NCBI GenBank assembly: GCA_019187105.1
Contig: JABAQM010000001.1
Location: 1,860,001-1,924,000, forward strand
Direction: 5' to 3'
DNA length: 64,000 nt
Source: Fimbriimonadaceae bacterium
GTDB taxonomy: Bacteria; Armatimonadota; Fimbriimonadia; Fimbriimonadales; Fimbriimonadaceae
Every line of letters begins with the position of its first letter. The first letter of the stretch is position 1. The notes under the pieces were generated by a model, which saw only the letters and a list, made by a program, of their open reading frames with translations, did not search any database and had not been told where the DNA came from. Made by a program: the position numbers and the translations under genes. This document shows, piece after piece, positions 3,854 through 25,403 of the stretch.

Positions 3854-4888
3854 CTAGATGGTCTCGAGTGAATCCAGAATCGCTTGTTCGCCCAGCCGCA
3901 AGATGCAGATACCTTGCTCGTCCAATTCCAATTCTTGAATGGTACCGACCTTCCGGTGCGCTTCGCCAGGAGCGAGGCGGAAGTAATCCGCCACTTCCCG
4001 CTCGCAGATACCCACGCGCCGCATCATCAGGTAAGCCGCCACGTCGGAAACCGAGACGGCTCCAGACTCGCACTGCGGAGCAATGCGGAGGATGGCGTCG
4101 TATAGGTGATCTCGCAACTCCCAGGCGCCAGAGTCGGACATGTAGGGTTCCAAGACTCCGAGAGAGGAGAGCACGTCGCGGTCGGAGAGCCATTGTTGTC
4201 GAATTAGCCTTAACCGGTGAAGGACGCCTTCGATGGATCGCGCGTTACCATGAATTTTGCGTGCGATGACGCGTGTGACGATCGGAGACAACTGGAGGCC
4301 GAACAGTCCGGCCATGTGGCGGATAACGATTTCTCGTTCAAGGGCATCGGGCTCAACGATCTGGGCCAGGTTCCATTCCCTAAGATATGGGAGGAACGAT
4401 CGAAGCGGCCGGGTGATTCGCCCAGCGCTGAATGTCAGCAGCGTTGGCCGACCGGCCCGAACGCGACGCTCCAGCATCATCCGCATCGATTGTCGCAATC
4501 GGGGCCTAGCGAGCACTTCCTGCATATCGTCGAGAACGAGTGGCTCGAAGACCTCCATCCGCGGCGGCTTGGTCGCAAAATTGGCGGCGGTATAGATCCG
4601 GACCCGTTGGCCGGACTGCCGTCGGAGGGTCTCCATGGCCGCATGGATCAGGTGGGTTTTGCCCCATCCAGATGGGCCGACAATCGCAACTTGGTTGGCA
4701 AGCCCGTTGGCGAAGGTCAACACCGATTCGATGGCTCGGATGTTCGACGGCAACGCCGCGAATGATCGAAACGTAAATCGATCTCCCCAAAAGAGCGAAT
4801 CCGATAGCCTCGCCGCCTTCAGCGGAAACTCGGCAACTCGCTCCTCCTGATCGACCAAGAAGTCCTTGGCAACTGGCACAGACATCAC
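3854..4888 (-). CDS. DnaA-like AAA+ ATPase with degenerate DNA-binding domain
   Basis: A 344-residue protein with DnaA-type AAA+ architecture: Walker A GPSGWGKT (71-78), Walker B LVLDD (117-121), sensor-I-like LLTFS, and a sensor II region NARSIEGVLHRL matching the DnaA IRELEGALNRL block. The C-terminal part (about 260-320) has the length of DnaA domain IV, but the diagnostic DHTTV-type signature is missing (LAPGEAHRKV lies there). It also lacks DnaA domains I and II. It is best read as a DnaA paralogue (Hda/DnaA-related) rather than the canonical initiator. The start (ATG, second codon also ATG) has no strong Shine-Dalgarno. A DnaA-box match sits in the 166-bp region upstream. Confidence 0.75.
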   Translation of the reverse strand: MMSVPVAKDFLVDQEERVAEFPLKAARLSDSLFWGDRFTFRSFAALPSNIRAIESVLTFANGLANQVAIVGPSGWGKTHLIHAAMETLRRQSGQRVRIYTAANFATKPPRMEVFEPLVLDDMQEVLARPRLRQSMRMMLERRVRAGRPTLLTFSAGRITRPLRSFLPYLREWNLAQIVEPDALEREIVIRHMAGLFGLQLSPIVTRVIARKIHGNARSIEGVLHRLRLIRQQWLSDRDVLSSLGVLEPYMSDSGAWELRDHLYDAILRIAPQCESGAVSVSDVAAYLMMRRVGICEREVADYFRLAPGEAHRKVGTIQELELDEQGICILRLGEQAILDSLETI

Positions 4889-5032
4889 GAACGTTTTGGC
4901 GCCCCCCAGCGCAGATAGCAGATTTCATTGTCTTATGGCCACGAGTGATCCGTCAAGGGACCCGCTGCGGCAAATAAGAAACGTTTTCGCCATTTTTGAG
5001 ACTAATGGATTCGTATTCTCGCCTCAGCGGAG

Positions 5033-5041
5033 TTATTCACA
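5033..5041 (+). promoter_or_regulatory. DnaA box upstream of the dnaA-like gene
   Basis: TTATTCACA matches the degenerate DnaA-box consensus TTWTNCACA. It lies in an AT-rich patch (with TTTTTAAAA next to it) between the dnaA-like gene and the cytochrome gene end. On the minus strand the same region carries TTGACG (near 4955) in front of an AT-rich stretch, a possible promoter. The placement suggests autoregulation, as known for many dnaA genes. Only one clear box is seen, so an origin is not claimed. Confidence 0.45.
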
Positions 5042-5054
5042 TTTTTAAAATCAG

Positions 5055-6299
5055 TTAGTGGTCGACTTTCGGCCAGTATTTGTGGAAGTCGAAGCCGGGG
5101 CTGTTGTTGGCGTCGTGGCACGGCATGCAGCTTTTTGCGCCAACCTTAGGCATGGGTGCGCCGGCAGGGTCCTGGGCGTGCTTCTGCCCCGGCCCGTGGC
5201 AGCTTTCGCAGCCGACGTTGGGCAGCAGCGGGGTTTTGGCGCGACTGCGGAAGCCTGTGTCCGAGTCCAGGCCGACGACGTGGCAGCCGACGCATTCGGG
5301 ATCGGCATCTGCATTCAGGCGCTCGAGCGTGCGCAGGGCGACCCCATGCTTGGTCGCGGCCCATATCCGGCCATCTTCCGCATGGCACTTCATGCAGTTC
5401 TTGGTGCCGGCGAATGCATCCGTCTCCTTTCTCGGCACCCGGTCAAGCAGGTTCTCTCGGCGCACCCGATCCTGATAGTCGCGATAGAGCGTCGCCACGC
5501 GCGGATGGTCGGCGTACTGTGGGCCGAGGTCGACAATGCGAAGTTCCTTCCACTGGTCGTCCTGCCATCGCAGAGCGATGAGCTTCTTCCCCAGCTCGCC
5601 ACCCGGCATGAGCCACGCTCCGGCGACGCTCTTTGGTCTCTGACCGGGCTGAAGCGGTCCACGGTAAACGATAAGCGCGACATCCGGCGTCGGCTTGAGC
5701 TTTTCGGCTTGTTGGGCGGTACCGTCGAATAAGACGATGAGCTTGGCGAGGTTATTGCGGGCTCGGGCTGCTTCGGCTTCCAACGCGGTCTGTGAGTCGG
5801 TCGGTGAGCCGCCAAGCAGACGCGCCAGCTCAGCAGGGTTGGCTGAGATGGCGCAGATGCGGAAAGGGCCGTCCTCGATCGCCGATTTCAAGTTTGGAAT
5901 CGGTTGGGCGAGATTTGACGCAATCGTTAGACCGCCCGAGAGTCTTGAAACCGCTTCGAGCAGCGGCGCACCCTTTTCCGCGTCTGTGGCTGTCCAGGCG
6001 ATCGCGCTGCCTCCCATCTCGCGGAACGCTTCGGCGAACGTTTCGGCCTTCATATCGGATTGGCGGTCGACCCCCGACGTGATCGGCCCGGCCTCAAGAA
6101 CGACAGCTTCGCGATTACCGGCAATGGCGCTGATTGCCGTTGCCCGGCGGCGGATGCCACCTGACATCGGCTTCACACATCCACAGGGACTCAGGTAGCC
6201 ATTGAGGTCACCTGAAATGAACACCCAAACCGGCTCATCGGCGGGAGCGGCTGCGAACCCAAGCGAGAGGGCCGCCAGTGCCCAGAGAACGGGCTTCAT
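5055..6299 (-). CDS. Exported tetrahaem cytochrome c with phosphoesterase-like N-terminal domain
   Basis: A 414-aa precursor with a signal peptide (MKPVLWALAALSLGFAAAPA). The N-terminal part, residues 25-270, has ISGDLNGYLSPCGC and LEAGPITSG, the fold pattern of UshA/5'-nucleotidase-like metallophosphoesterases, but a full set of metal ligands is not evident. The C-terminal part carries four CxxCH haem sites at 302, 336, 364 and 391, resembling the cytochrome c554 family. It should act in the periplasm or on the cell surface in electron transfer. Its start overlaps the stop of the upstream DUF1573 gene (ATGA), so the two are translationally coupled. No haem-lyase or reductase gene is adjacent. 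Confidence 0.85.
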   Translation of the reverse strand: MKPVLWALAALSLGFAAAPADEPVWVFISGDLNGYLSPCGCVKPMSGGIRRRATAISAIAGNREAVVLEAGPITSGVDRQSDMKAETFAEAFREMGGSAIAWTATDAEKGAPLLEAVSRLSGGLTIASNLAQPIPNLKSAIEDGPFRICAISANPAELARLLGGSPTDSQTALEAEAARARNNLAKLIVLFDGTAQQAEKLKPTPDVALIVYRGPLQPGQRPKSVAGAWLMPGGELGKKLIALRWQDDQWKELRIVDLGPQYADHPRVATLYRDYQDRVRRENLLDRVPRKETDAFAGTKNCMKCHAEDGRIWAATKHGVALRTLERLNADADPECVGCHVVGLDSDTGFRSRAKTPLLPNVGCESCHGPGQKHAQDPAGAPMPKVGAKSCMPCHDANNSPGFDFHKYWPKVDH

Positions 6300-20045: not shown

Positions 20046-20726
20046 CTACTTGCGGCTTGACAGTTCCCGAATGCAAATGGGCGCGTAAGGCGATATACAG
20101 CCTTTCGAAGTCGGATAGTCCTTGAAGGCTCCGAGCTTCTCGCCGATTGCGATCGCCCGCTCCCGGTGTTCGGCAAATTCGACGCCGATCATGGATAGCG
20201 CATAGTTCATCGTCCATTGAACAGGAACAGGCGCTGAACCCATCTCGCCTTCGATGCGATCGAGGAGTGAAGGCAGGTCCAGCCCTTCGGGGTCCTTCAT
20301 GACTCGCTCGGTTGTCAGGCTCCAAGCGGCACGGCTGGGCCCAATCTCGCTGGCGGCCATCCACTTTTCCCGAAGGTTCTCCTTTTCGGGATGCGGTTTG
20401 ACCACGTTGGTCATCAGCCACTCGGCAAGCTGGGAGTTCATCGTCCCTGGCGCAAAGGGGACCTCTCGGACCATCTGGTCGAGCAGCTCGGCCGTAAGCT
20501 GCTTGGGCTTCATGATCTGCGTGGCCAGTAGCATCGCATCCCAGTTGCCCGTCGCCCAAAGAGCCAGCCCGAGCTCGTGGTCGGTCTTGATCCGTTTCGC
20601 CAGGTTGCGCAGGTCGCCCATTTGCGCACCAAACTGGTTCTCGCCCACACCGTTCTTGGCGTTGATCTTGCGCATTTTCTCGGTTCCGAGAGCGCGAAGC
20701 TCGGCCATGGCCTCGTCAAGTGTCAT
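20046..20726 (-). CDS. DNA alkylation repair protein, AlkD-like HEAT repeat
   Basis: About 226 aa, helical throughout. It shows the DNA-alkylation-repair (DUF1061/AlkD-like) pattern: LRALGTEKMRKINAKNGVGENQFGAQMGDLRNLAKRIKTDHELGLALWATGNWDAMLLA, then MVREVPF and the Trp-containing MASEIGPSRAAWSL region. AlkD-type glycosylases excise N3- and N7-alkyl purines, but not all homologues are active. ATG at 20726 is preferred, with TACTCT 7 nt upstream; a TTG at 20750 is an alternative. Confidence 0.75.
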   Translation of the reverse strand: MTLDEAMAELRALGTEKMRKINAKNGVGENQFGAQMGDLRNLAKRIKTDHELGLALWATGNWDAMLLATQIMKPKQLTAELLDQMVREVPFAPGTMNSQLAEWLMTNVVKPHPEKENLREKWMAASEIGPSRAAWSLTTERVMKDPEGLDLPSLLDRIEGEMGSAPVPVQWTMNYALSMIGVEFAEHRERAIAIGEKLGAFKDYPTSKGCISPYAPICIRELSSRK

Positions 20727-20759
20727 AGGTTCGAGAGTACCGAAGGTCAATAGAGTGGT

Positions 20760-21290
20760 TTATGACGTGGGCTCCAGGCTGTTGAGCCATTCTTGGGTTT
20801 GCCGCGCGTTACGCAGCATGATCATATATCGACCCGTCGCTGCCCAGTGGCGCATCCGACGCCGCTTGTTCGCAAAGCTCTTGAAGTGCCAAAGGATAAT
20901 GGAATCGCGGGAGAGGGCCACGCGAAAGGATTCGATATTGCCGTTGCAGACTGGCTGCTTATCGACAGCCCGTCTTAAGGTCCGGCCGACAAGCCTCGCA
21001 AGCGACAGCCAGCGGGGGTAATCAAGGCCAATGATGAGCTCGACCCTTTGGAGAGGAATGTCCAGCCACTTCGCGTACGCGGTATCGAGAATCCACTCTT
21101 CTTGGTTGCAGATCGCTTCTATTCTTCTCGCCTGCTCTTCGAGCGGCACTTCGATCCAGCCGGGGTCCCAGGTGAGGTCGTCGACCGAGTGCCAGGGAAT
21201 GCCGGTTCTCAGGCTGATCTCCTTGGCAAGCGTGGTCTTGCCGGATCCGGTGACGCCGTAGATGAGGATGCGGCGTGGGGGGTCTGGCAT
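20760..21290 (-). CDS. Adenylate-kinase-like P-loop ATPase
   Basis: About 176 aa. P-loop ILIYGVTGSGKTTLAKEI near the N-terminus, a DDLTWDPGW segment as in 'DNA topology modulation protein'/FlaR-type small kinases, then WILDTAYAKWLDIPLQRVELIIGLDYP (Walker-B-like) and a basic C-terminus. The substrate is unknown. ATG at 21290 follows TAAACT by 6 nt; an in-frame GTG at 21293 is less likely. Its stop lies 33 nt before the start of the AlkD-like gene. Confidence 0.75.
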   Translation of the reverse strand: MPDPPRRILIYGVTGSGKTTLAKEISLRTGIPWHSVDDLTWDPGWIEVPLEEQARRIEAICNQEEWILDTAYAKWLDIPLQRVELIIGLDYPRWLSLARLVGRTLRRAVDKQPVCNGNIESFRVALSRDSIILWHFKSFANKRRRMRHWAATGRYMIMLRNARQTQEWLNSLEPTS

Positions 21291-21296
21291 CACTGG

Positions 21297-21302: not shown

Positions 21303-21617
21303 GACTCGGGTAATCATTGGACAAACAGGCATGGGCTTTGTCGAGGGTGCCCGGCCGCCAACGATGGATGACATCAAGGCTCTCTTTGAGAGACCCGGAG
21401 ATTCAGTGCCTGACGAAGGTGTGCTGCTCGCGATATCGAGAAGAACCCGACTGCTAAAGTGGAGCATGAAGCTCCGAATGCGAGGCTAGAGAGATTCCAG
21501 ACATCCGACGCAACTAGCGCGGCATCTCAACCGACGATGAGGCAAACAGTCGGCGAACGGGACGGGCGTTGCCGCCCGCCTAACCAGGCAGGCTGATTCC
21601 TTCTTTGCGTTTTCACC
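21303..21617. other. Intergenic stretch, no supported gene
   Basis: Between the kinase-like gene and the small membrane protein. It holds one short plus-strand ORF at 21331-21489 (52 codons, MGFVEGARPPTMDDIKALFE...) that has no visible ribosome site or family; it could be a remnant or a small gene. Nothing else was recognised. Confidence 0.4.
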
Positions 21618-21881
21618 TTACCTTCTGAGCCTGTGTACCTGGTCGCGTATCATCGCGACCCAGTGGAGGCTGAGCCAGAAGAAGCTACTGCACAGGATGA
21701 AGATTGCGGCGCCGAGCACCGTGCTTGGAGCGCCAGCCAAGACGAGAAGCGGGCACGCCACTAGCGCCGAAGCGAATATCGCCAGGGTTCCTCCGACACA
21801 TCGCGCACAGTGGCCCCACTTGGATCGCGTTGACCGCATTCTGTCCTCGGGCGGCGCATCGTCCTGGCACTTACATCCCAT
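21618..21881 (-). CDS. Small Cys-containing membrane protein
   Basis: 87 aa: a polar Cys-rich start (MGCKCQDD), a CARC pair near residue 27, two transmembrane helices (about 30-52 and 55-75) and a basic tail. It begins 4 nt after the stop of the large TSP1-repeat membrane protein and must be in the same operon. It may assist or interact with that protein (inference). No family recognised. Confidence 0.6.
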   Translation of the reverse strand: MGCKCQDDAPPEDRMRSTRSKWGHCARCVGGTLAIFASALVACPLLVLAGAPSTVLGAAIFILCSSFFWLSLHWVAMIRDQVHRLRR

Positions 21882-21885
21882 CGTC

Positions 21886-23640
21886 TTATTGATTCGGGCA
21901 AAGAATTGCGTGCAGAATCACCAGCAAGGACAGGATGACGCCTCCCCATAGCACGAGGACAATTGCTCCCAGGAAGCAGCCCGGGTGGCCCATAAGTGAA
22001 AGGATTACCCCTAGCACGGCAGCGGCCAGGTTGATGCCAGAAAGAATCAACATGAGCAGCCGTAGCCAACCGCATCCATCGGCCCGACCGGGAACGCACA
22101 AGAAGGCCCAGATGGCCATCAGCACGAGGCAGACAATCGCGGCAACGAGGCAGATCCAGAGCATGACCTGGATCGTTCCCGCGACGGCGAGACCCGCTGG
22201 CCAAGTTACGCCAAGCGCCAGCCCTACAATAGCAGATACGATCGCCTTGTCGAGCATGCAGAAGGTGATCAGCGTGAAGATCGCGGTGAGAGAGACGAGA
22301 CCGACAATCACCCAAAAGAAAATGCAGCAGGGATCGCACGTCACGTCGCTTGAGCAGCGCCTCGTTTCGACGAGATCTGGGCAAGGACGGCCACCAGGGG
22401 AAGGCTGAGTGATCACCGTGCGGGATCGACTCTGCAAGCCGTCGACGCAAGGCCCAAATGCCGAGAACTCCGACACAACGCAGTCGGTGGGCTGTTGGCG
22501 ACATCGCCGGCGCTGAGTCAATGGAGGACAAGGACTACCTCCGTTCTGGGGCTGGACGATGATCCGTCTGGTCCGCGTGCGGAATCCATCGATGCACCTA
22601 CTCCAAGGTGTAAACCGCGAGACCCGGCAGTCGACCCGTCCAGGGTCTTCGTCGCCCGTCCCGCCGCAAGAGAAGGTCGCCGTTGCTTCTCCGATACAAT
22701 TGTTCGAATCCACGACGAGCGCGGAATAGGTTGTGTTGACTGCCTCGTTAGCGGCATAGCCGATGTCCACCGACAGCGGATTATCCGTTCGGGGATCGCC
22801 GTTTGCGTCCACGAGAATGGCGGGATCGCCCGCTCCAGACTGGCTTTCGGTCCAGCGCAAGACACTAACGGCTCCGCCATCTGGCGCGAGCACTCTCAGG
22901 GAGTAGGTACCGCTGGGGGAATCGGTGCAGGTGAGGTTCGCGGAAGGGAAGGATTGGCCATCGGACGACCTGGTAATCGCAATCTCAACATCCGCTAGAC
23001 AGGGCCCGCACTGAATCTGAAGATCGCGTACATCGGGCGGACAACCATTGTCGGCACAGGTCGCCTCGACGGCAACGATTCGGAAACATTCGAATGACTT
23101 TAGCTCCGTCCCGACACCGGGGTCCCCTTCTCGGAGCAAGAGCGTCCAGGTCTCGCCGGTGATTGCGGCACTGCCGGTAACTTGGGCTCCGTCGCTGTTG
23201 GTGACGATGACGGTGACACCCGTGCAGTTCGTAGCGGCGCCTATTATGTTGAGTTGCGAGAGTCCTCCACTTGCTGCCACCGTGCCATGTAGCTCAAGAA
23301 CGGTTATGGAGCAAGGCAGCGCTTGGCAATCGACAGTTAAAGTGTTCGGATCGACTTGAAGGCTGGTGGATGAGCCATCGAAGCATGAAAGCTCGATAAT
23401 CAGTTGTTGCCCACAGTCGATAGCACCTGCCCTAATGTCTTCAGGTATGTCGAACGATCTAGACCAGGTCGTGCCGGTCAACTGAGCGTTAGTAAGCGCT
23501 AGGAGCTCAGCGGTATCGGCGTGAATAACCCGTAACTGCAGCGAGCCTGCGCATTCATCACAGGCCCCGCTAACCTCCAGCCTGATGATCTGCCCGGCTC
23601 CGTCCTGATACGCAATCGCCGAAATAGCGCTTGTCGCCAT
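21886..23640 (-). CDS. Membrane protein with two thrombospondin type 1-like repeats
   Basis: 584 aa starting MATSAISAIAYQDGAG, with no signal peptide. Residues 1-335 are Thr/Ser/Cys-rich beta domains with repeated paired Cys (CDECAGSL, DCQALPCSITVLEL, QIQCGPCLADVEI). Two tandem 44-residue repeats follow at 337-380 and 386-429. Each has the TSP1 pattern FxxWxxC, RTRTR, QPxxGGxPCP and RRC; the second Trp is Phe in repeat 2. The rest, from about 440 to 582, is made of five or so transmembrane helices. The gene start is ATG with GAGG 9 nt upstream. TSP1 repeats usually mediate extracellular adhesion, so the missing signal peptide is odd; the N-terminal part may still be exported through the later membrane helices or another route. 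Function unknown. Confidence 0.72.
   Translation of the reverse strand: MATSAISAIAYQDGAGQIIRLEVSGACDECAGSLQLRVIHADTAELLALTNAQLTGTTWSRSFDIPEDIRAGAIDCGQQLIIELSCFDGSSTSLQVDPNTLTVDCQALPCSITVLELHGTVAASGGLSQLNIIGAATNCTGVTVIVTNSDGAQVTGSAAITGETWTLLLREGDPGVGTELKSFECFRIVAVEATCADNGCPPDVRDLQIQCGPCLADVEIAITRSSDGQSFPSANLTCTDSPSGTYSLRVLAPDGGAVSVLRWTESQSGAGDPAILVDANGDPRTDNPLSVDIGYAANEAVNTTYSALVVDSNNCIGEATATFSCGGTGDEDPGRVDCRVSRFTPWSRCIDGFRTRTRRIIVQPQNGGSPCPPLTQRRRCRQQPTDCVVSEFSAFGPCVDGLQSRSRTVITQPSPGGRPCPDLVETRRCSSDVTCDPCCIFFWVIVGLVSLTAIFTLITFCMLDKAIVSAIVGLALGVTWPAGLAVAGTIQVMLWICLVAAIVCLVLMAIWAFLCVPGRADGCGWLRLLMLILSGINLAAAVLGVILSLMGHPGCFLGAIVLVLWGGVILSLLVILHAILCPNQ
22354..22632 (-). repeat. Two tandem TSP1-like coding repeats
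   Basis: Codons 337-429 of the membrane protein encode two 44-residue units separated by RQQPT. The units share spacing of four Cys and the GGxPCPxL segment, but have diverged at nucleotide level. Confidence 0.7.
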
Positions 23641-23792
23641 AGCACTTGCCTCGATTAAGCACAACTGATTCCGCACTGAAGGGACTATCCCCGTACGCAA
23701 CCTGCTTCTTGGCACTTAGGATAGCATTTCCTTGGCGAGATGCAACGGCATCTGGAGGGGCGGTGCCTGCCTCCCTCTCTGCTATGGCGGCA

Positions 23793-25319
23793 TTACCCGA
23801 CAGAACCTTCTAAGCTCACACCAAGTAACTTCTGAGCTTCCACTGCAAACTCCATCGGAAGCTCCCGGAAGACGTCCTTGCAGAAACCGCTCACGATCAT
23901 GTTCACCGCATCCTCGGTTGGGATGCCGCGCTGGTTGCAGTAAAAGATCTGGTCTTCCCCGATTTTCGAGGTCGAGGCTTCGTGCTCCACGGTCGCCGTC
24001 GGGTTCTTGACCTCGATATACGGGAACGTGTGGGCGCCGCAGCGATCGCCCATCAGCATCGAATCGCATTGGGAGTAGTTGCGGGCATTGTCAGCACCGG
24101 CGTTGATTTTAACGAGGCCGCGATAGGTGTTCTGCCCATTGCCGGCGGAAATGCCCTTGGCCACGATGGTCGACCGTGTGTTCTTGCCGATGTGGATCAT
24201 CTTCGTTCCGGTGTCGGCCTGCTGCTTGTTGGCGGTGAGGGCCACGCTATAGAATTCACCAATGCTGTTATCGCCTTTCAAGAGTACAGAAGGGTACTTC
24301 CAGGTGATCGCGGAACCCGTTTCAACCTGTGTCCAGGTGATTTTGGAGTTGTCGCCTTCGCATTTACCGCGCTTGGTGACGAAATTGAAGATCCCACCCT
24401 TGCCGTCCTTATCGCCTGGGTACCAGTTTTGGACGGTGGAGTACTTGATCGTCGCGTCCTTCTCGGCCACGAGCTCGACCACCGCGGCGTGCAGCTGGTT
24501 TTCGTCACGCATCGGGGCGGTGCAGCCTTCCAAGTAGCTGACGTAAGCCCCTTCGTCGGCGATGATGAGCGTCCTTTCGAATTGTCCGGTCTTGGCAGCA
24601 TTGATCCGGAAGTAGGTGCTCAGCTCCATCGGGCAACGGACGCCCTTAGGAACGTAAACGAAGCTTCCATCGCTAAAGACCGCGCTGTTGAGCGTCGCAT
24701 AGTAGTTGTCGCTGTACGGCACGACCGATCCCAAGTACTTCTGGACCAAGTCGGGATGCTCGATGATCGCCTCGCTCATCGAGCAGAAGATGATTCCCTC
24801 TGCTTTCAGTTTGTCCTTGAAGGTGGTGGCGACGGAGACGGAATCGAACACCGCATCGACGGCCACGTTCGCCATTGTTCCCGCGTGGGTTTCGGCCGCC
24901 CCCTGAACGTTCAGCAGCAGTTCCTGCTCCTTGATCGGGATGCCAAGCTTCTCGAAAGTGCGAAGCAACTCGGGGTCGGCGTCCTCCAGCGAATTGAGCT
25001 GCGGCATGTTCTTGGGCGCCGAGTAGTAGCTGATCGACTGAAGGTCGACCGGCTCGTATTTGACATTCGGCCACTGCGGCTCCTTCATCGACTGGAGATG
25101 CCGGTACGCCTTCAGGCGCCACTCGGTCATCCATTGCGGCTCGCCCTTCTTCTTGGATAGGGCAATCACGACCTCCTCGCTGAGGCCGGGAGCGAAGGTG
25201 TCCGATTCAAGTTCGGTGACGAAGCCTTCCTTGTATTCGCGGTCGGCCCATCGTTCAAGGAGAATATCGTTTTCGGAAGGGGCCTCGATTGGCCCGGCGG
25301 TTAGGGTTTCTTGGGACAT
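23793..25319 (-). CDS. sufB: Fe-S cluster assembly scaffold SufB
   Basis: 508 aa with highly conserved SufB blocks: [48 protein letters not shown] region, [19 protein letters not shown], and C-terminal [21 protein letters not shown]. SufB with SufC and SufD builds Fe-S clusters under stress or as the main system. ATG at 25319 opens the homologous region; upstream in-frame codons look non-coding. No sufC, sufD, sufS or sufU lies beside it, which is unusual because suf genes normally cluster. Confidence 0.95.
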
Positions 25320-25403
25320 AAGCAGTGTTCGAACCATCCACCCGGCAGCACCGGCATCATGATTCGTCAATCTTTACTACGCCGTAAAGTTTACTTCGTC
25401 GAC

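Follow-up and report, generated by a model that had tools for sequence, protein, structure and literature searches.

The analysed window, a 64,000-nt stretch of contig JABAQM010000001.1 (assembly GCA_019187105.1) from a Fimbriimonadaceae bacterium, encodes on its minus strand a 584-residue protein that carries a true pair of thrombospondin type 1 (TSP1) units and a hydrophobic C-terminus, and that lacks a signal peptide. The gene lies together with an 87-residue ORF in an islet bordered by sufB on one side and by a decayed, inverted fragment of it on the other. The features of this locus, in window positions, are as follows:

21433-21548, plus strand: decayed remnant matching sufB nt 1352-1471 in inverted orientation (72% identity, E 1.7e-10), bordering the islet downstream
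21618-21881, minus strand: 87-residue ORF with a hydrophobic centre and six Cys, 4 nt beyond the TSP1 stop codon, without a clear homologue
21886-23640, minus strand: 584-residue signal-less ORF (ORF and Pfam evidence) comprising N-terminal repeats, the TSP1 pair and membrane helices at the C-terminus
21901-22335, minus strand: C-terminal hydrophobic region, residues 436-580, four to five predicted transmembrane helices (hydropathy, AlphaFold), no family
22345-22482, minus strand: TSP1 unit 2, four Cys, spacing 11-22-9 (Pfam, Cys spacing, AlphaFold2)
22489-22629, minus strand: TSP1 unit 1, four Cys, spacing 11-22-9 (Pfam, Cys spacing, AlphaFold2)
22651-23001, minus strand: unit d3, residues 214-330, some strands (low-confidence prediction), no family
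23002-23322, minus strand: unit d2, residues 107-213 (blastp, alignment)
23323-23640, minus strand: unit d1, residues 1-106, with cysteines and homology to d2 (blastp of d1 against d2, alignment)
23649-23652, minus strand: GAGG, Shine-Dalgarno-like, 8 nt before the ATG (sequence)
23793-25370, minus strand: sufB (SufBD core), bordering the islet upstream; the inverted remnant derives from its 3' part

The TSP1 gene and the islet beside sufB

The TSP1 ORF starts with the ATG at 23640, preceded by the GAGG motif at a spacing of 8 nt. The absence of a signal peptide, as claimed in the original prediction, was borne out by hydropathy: the maximum 19-residue KD mean was 0.78 within the first ~60 residues, where no hydrophobic stretch was found. 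The original prediction had also considered an earlier in-frame start that would supply a signal peptide, yet the frame extends upstream for only 25 residues, to a GTG, before it meets a stop. This extension is charged and contains neither a signal-like sequence nor a hydrophobic stretch, and no signal peptide was found upstream in the other two frames. The ORF located 4 nt downstream agrees with the small Cys-containing membrane protein that had been described there; its matches in relatives were marginal.

The best match of the decayed copy at 21433-21548 is the sufB gene of the same genome. The codon adaptation of the TSP1 gene, at 0.614, is the lowest among the long ORFs of the window (mean 0.700, sd 0.040). 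Judged by this value and by its position between sufB and the decayed copy, the gene looks to have been acquired or rearranged. No integrase or transposase was noticed at the islet, and in nine relatives sufB was not flanked by any of the window neighbours tested. Downstream of the islet, a P-loop kinase-like ORF and a gene for DNA alkylation repair lie at 20046-21293 on the minus strand. A second genome of the same family (G010) harbours a direct duplicate of 36 C-terminal SufB residues with 86% identity (L104, positions 2378-2485), located ~2.6 kb downstream of sufB and separated from it by small ORFs, one of which is sigma-factor-like. The 3' end of sufB may thus be a recurrent site of insertion or recombination.

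A TSP1 pair of the phage subtype

Pfam TSP1_spondin (PF19028) matched the whole protein with 85.8 bits (E 2.4e-24) against a curated cutoff of 41 bits, and each unit exceeded this cutoff alone (47-53 bits); the match to Pfam TSP_1 had a value of 2.3e-5. Residues 337-432, which comprise the pair, were modelled by AlphaFold2 from an alignment with 41 phage pairs, giving a mean pLDDT of 93.3. In Foldseek searches, the top PDB matches of this model were the human thrombospondin-1 TSRs 1lsl and 3r6b, and the single domains superpose on the TSP1 domains of complement C8/C9 at 1.6-2.0 Å over ~52 residues. Both profile and fold hence assign the protein to the TSP1_spondin/TSP1 repeat family, and the HMM search and structure prediction that had been proposed for residues 337-429 uphold the two repeats.

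Each unit contains four cysteines with the spacing 11-22-9, a form that, by our reading, corresponds to the TSP1 core minus one of its usual three Cys pairs. A scan of predicted virus contigs with the TSP1 pair retrieved nine contigs with identities of 48-57%; a second one, run with twelve units, gave 39 loci that overlap those of the first. The exact spacing was present in 69 of the 106 distinct units extracted, two of which are those of the TSP1 ORF (67/104 among the virus-contig units), proportions that are biased towards this subtype, as the queries were the units of the TSP1 ORF in both scans, joined by phage units in the second. Both units of the ORF belong by their spacing to the phage subtype, a set itself found with queries that included them. 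The best single-unit identities were 60-64% to phage units, versus 40-49% to units of signal-bearing proteins, with the four-Cys virus-contig units overall being 50-64% identical. The best fold match in BFVD was a TSP1 protein of an uncultured Caudovirales phage (45% identity, E 7.8e-11), and among the UniProt entries linked to BFVD, those of an uncultured phage and of algal giant viruses already carry a TSP1 annotation.

Several carriers of the four-Cys TSP1 units in the virus contigs are clear virion proteins, namely a structural protein that we take to be of the crAss type (phrog_14478, with E values down to 0), a major tail protein (phrog_1407) and a tail fibre (phrog_5616). As in the TSP1 ORF, the units of these proteins form tandem pairs spaced ~48-49 residues apart, with the 11-22-9 pattern and no signal peptide; unlike the ORF, the carriers have no C-terminal multi-helix region, and none possesses its N-terminal domains. 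Amongst the loci scanned, the large virion structural proteins of L006, L007, L028, L034 and L044 bear 2-11 four-Cys units (phrog_14478 being assigned in L006, L007, L034 and L044), whilst the major tail protein at L037 (positions 4416-5459; phrog_1407, E 1e-22) bears a tandem pair after its tail-protein domain, apparently as surface decoration, and is similar to proteins in L036 and L047. The four-Cys array looks like a widespread, little-described virion adhesion module. Full-text searches of the library used retrieved no paper that treats thrombospondin repeats together with phage tails or with Armatimonadota, which is weak evidence of novelty; the nearest match (PMC7824862) mentions thrombospondin only in its reference list.

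The original prediction had viewed the repeats as mainly animal and apicomplexan adhesion modules, a framing that does not hold, as the nearest relatives found are the signal-less arrays of phage virion proteins, and in phages TSP1 proteins commonly lack a signal peptide. The animal and apicomplexan adhesins (thrombospondin-1, complement C6-C9, MIC2) share the fold. They possess signal peptides and usually six cysteines, in contrast to the four per unit and absent signal of the TSP1 ORF, and the sequence matches to MIC2 and complement C7 are weak, far weaker than those to phages. The four-Cys subtype and the phage identities disfavour a transfer from animal to bacterium, and the protein, having no N-terminal signal peptide, is not classed as an animal-type secreted adhesin. 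The signal-bearing TSP1 proteins of virus-labelled contigs (L058, L059, L063 and L065) are homologous in their TSP1 units, but these are longer and do not follow the 11-22-9 pattern, and the proteins have N-terminal hydrophobic stretches. Nor is the protein itself classed as a virion protein, since it has no PHROG match and its neighbours are sufB and other cellular genes, not phage genes.

An isolated architecture with a hydrophobic C-terminus

Searches of 60 relatives, of 291 genomes of the phylum, of phage, plasmid and virus-contig collections and of species genomes gave no homologue of the whole protein; the species genomes were covered by two scans with short peptide patterns, which diverged proteins could escape. 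Within the phylum, TSP1_spondin exceeded its cutoff in one of 291 genomes, that of the TSP1 ORF itself, and a search for paralogues across this 3.3-Mb genome revealed no further TSP1 units outside the gene. The claims that such repeats are rare, here within the phylum, and that the architecture has no known match are both supported in these collections. Low-scoring matches in relatives to the N-terminal and membrane parts were probably due to chance, as they fell in transporters, a respiratory-type membrane subunit, an Hsp70-like gene, or frames that were wrong or overlapping; in the virus contigs neither part had a match.

The region preceding the TSP1 pair, described in the original prediction as beta-rich Cys-containing domains, consists of three units of ~105-115 residues. 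The first two are diverged copies of one unit (blastp E 1e-4) and the third is different. The cysteine content of these units stood, whilst their beta content was predicted at low confidence only, by single-sequence AlphaFold. Residues 1-429 contain 23 cysteines, eight of them at disulfide-type TSP1 positions. No credible relative of the N-terminal repeat was found in the 291 phylum genomes, d2 yielding one marginal match (0.008).

For the C-terminal region, about five membrane helices had been proposed, in keeping with the five segments detected by hydropathy in residues 436-580, versus four helices in AlphaFold. The full-protein AlphaFold model is a single-sequence prediction of low confidence, poor outside the helices, and its first helix spans 41 residues (436-476) with Asp464-Lys465 in the middle. 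The second hydrophobic segment is weak, with an apparent dG of +1.35 on an approximate scale. If five helices are read, the charged loops fit the positive-inside rule with the N-terminus outside; if four are read, an Arg-bearing loop lies between helices 2 and 3, and the rule places both ends inside. The new surface-display mechanism with C-terminal anchoring that the original prediction raised would require the head outside, and on this the two readings give opposite placements. An N-out topology with five spans appears somewhat better supported, because the first AlphaFold helix, with Asp464-Lys465 within it, is too long for one span. No credible relatives of the membrane part were identified in relatives, the 291 phylum genomes or the virus contigs.

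Origin and orientation of the protein

We favour, with a probability of roughly 0.4, a lineage-specific, membrane-anchored binding protein in which the two virion-type TSP1 modules and the three Cys-bearing N-terminal units would form a large head, held in the cytoplasmic membrane by the C-terminal four to five helices. The simplest account is a gene, acquired or shuffled, with TSP1 modules that share ancestry with those of phage virions and a C-terminus that anchors the product in the membrane; lateral transfer and the shuffling of domains may have supplied the modules from those that phages and bacteria use for virion adhesion (the TSP1 domain tree is too weak to date a transfer). Lateral acquisition is suggested by the absence of the protein from all relatives, its codon adaptation and the adjoining sufB remnant. 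Given what TSP1 modules do in general and their place on phage tails, those of the ORF would bind a surface ligand, probably a glycan. The head would face outward, in a five-helix, N-out arrangement, with the first hydrophobic segment as a putative uncleaved reverse signal-anchor; the Cys content and charge pattern favour this orientation, whereas the missing signal peptide speaks against easy export. Bacteria do not usually translocate an N-tail of ~435 residues that has no cleavable signal, and the bolder proposal, that phage tail adhesion modules became a surface binding protein whose C-terminal bundle both anchors the signal-less head and drives its translocation, is unlikely. As no homologue of the head or membrane part was found, function and topology are without comparative support.

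A head that stays in the cytoplasm, on four helices with both termini inside, is doubtful but deserves consideration; the TSP1 pair would then work within the cell, for example in partner binding or sensing. This arrangement would account for the missing signal peptide, agrees with the four AlphaFold helices and the inside placement that their Arg-bearing loop implies, and has a parallel in the phage TSP1 proteins, which are likewise made in the cytoplasm without a signal. However, an oxidising compartment would be the fitting place for the conserved disulfide-type Cys pairs, the long first helix with its internal Asp-Lys pair is ill-fitted to a single span, and the protein matches no PADLOC family. 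A defence system was rejected, as neither this protein nor the 87-residue protein had a PADLOC match. Somewhat less probable again is a declining gene, or one formed by accident when a rearrangement joined a phage-type TSP1 fragment to unrelated coding sequence, with a functionless product. An orphan among 291 genomes, lower in codon adaptation than any other long window ORF and adjoined by a decayed inverted sufB copy, could be so explained; yet the frame is open for 584 codons behind a Shine-Dalgarno site, the Cys pattern is intact in both TSP1 units, the d1/d2 duplication has diverged but is still recognisable, the hydrophobic region is well formed and the gene shows no sign of internal decay.

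Export as cargo of a contractile, phage-tail-like injection system would reconcile the lack of a signal with a phage-related module, but it is very improbable and was rejected, the sheath family PF04984 being absent from the organism's own genome (G000) and the neighbours being housekeeping genes. The identical search detected this family in two of 20 relatives and in three control genomes; the related genomes G039 (L113) and G006 (L114) encode the sheath protein. With no contractile sheath encoded, the obvious alternative export route is removed. An ordinary secreted TSP1 protein with an overlooked signal peptide has precedent in the signal-bearing proteins of some virus contigs (L058, L063 and L065), but is scarcely credible and was likewise rejected, there being only 25 codons above the ATG before a stop and no hydrophobic stretch in this extension or in the other frames.

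The TSP1 ORF ties a TSP1 protein of a bacterium to the TSP1 modules of phage tails and virions, a pool of which little has been described. The ORF also offers a single-gene case in which to ask whether a C-terminal helix bundle can export a large N-terminal head that bears disulfides. With its head outside, the protein would be an unusual substrate of N-tail export; with its head inside, it would present a TSP1 pair working in the cytoplasm.
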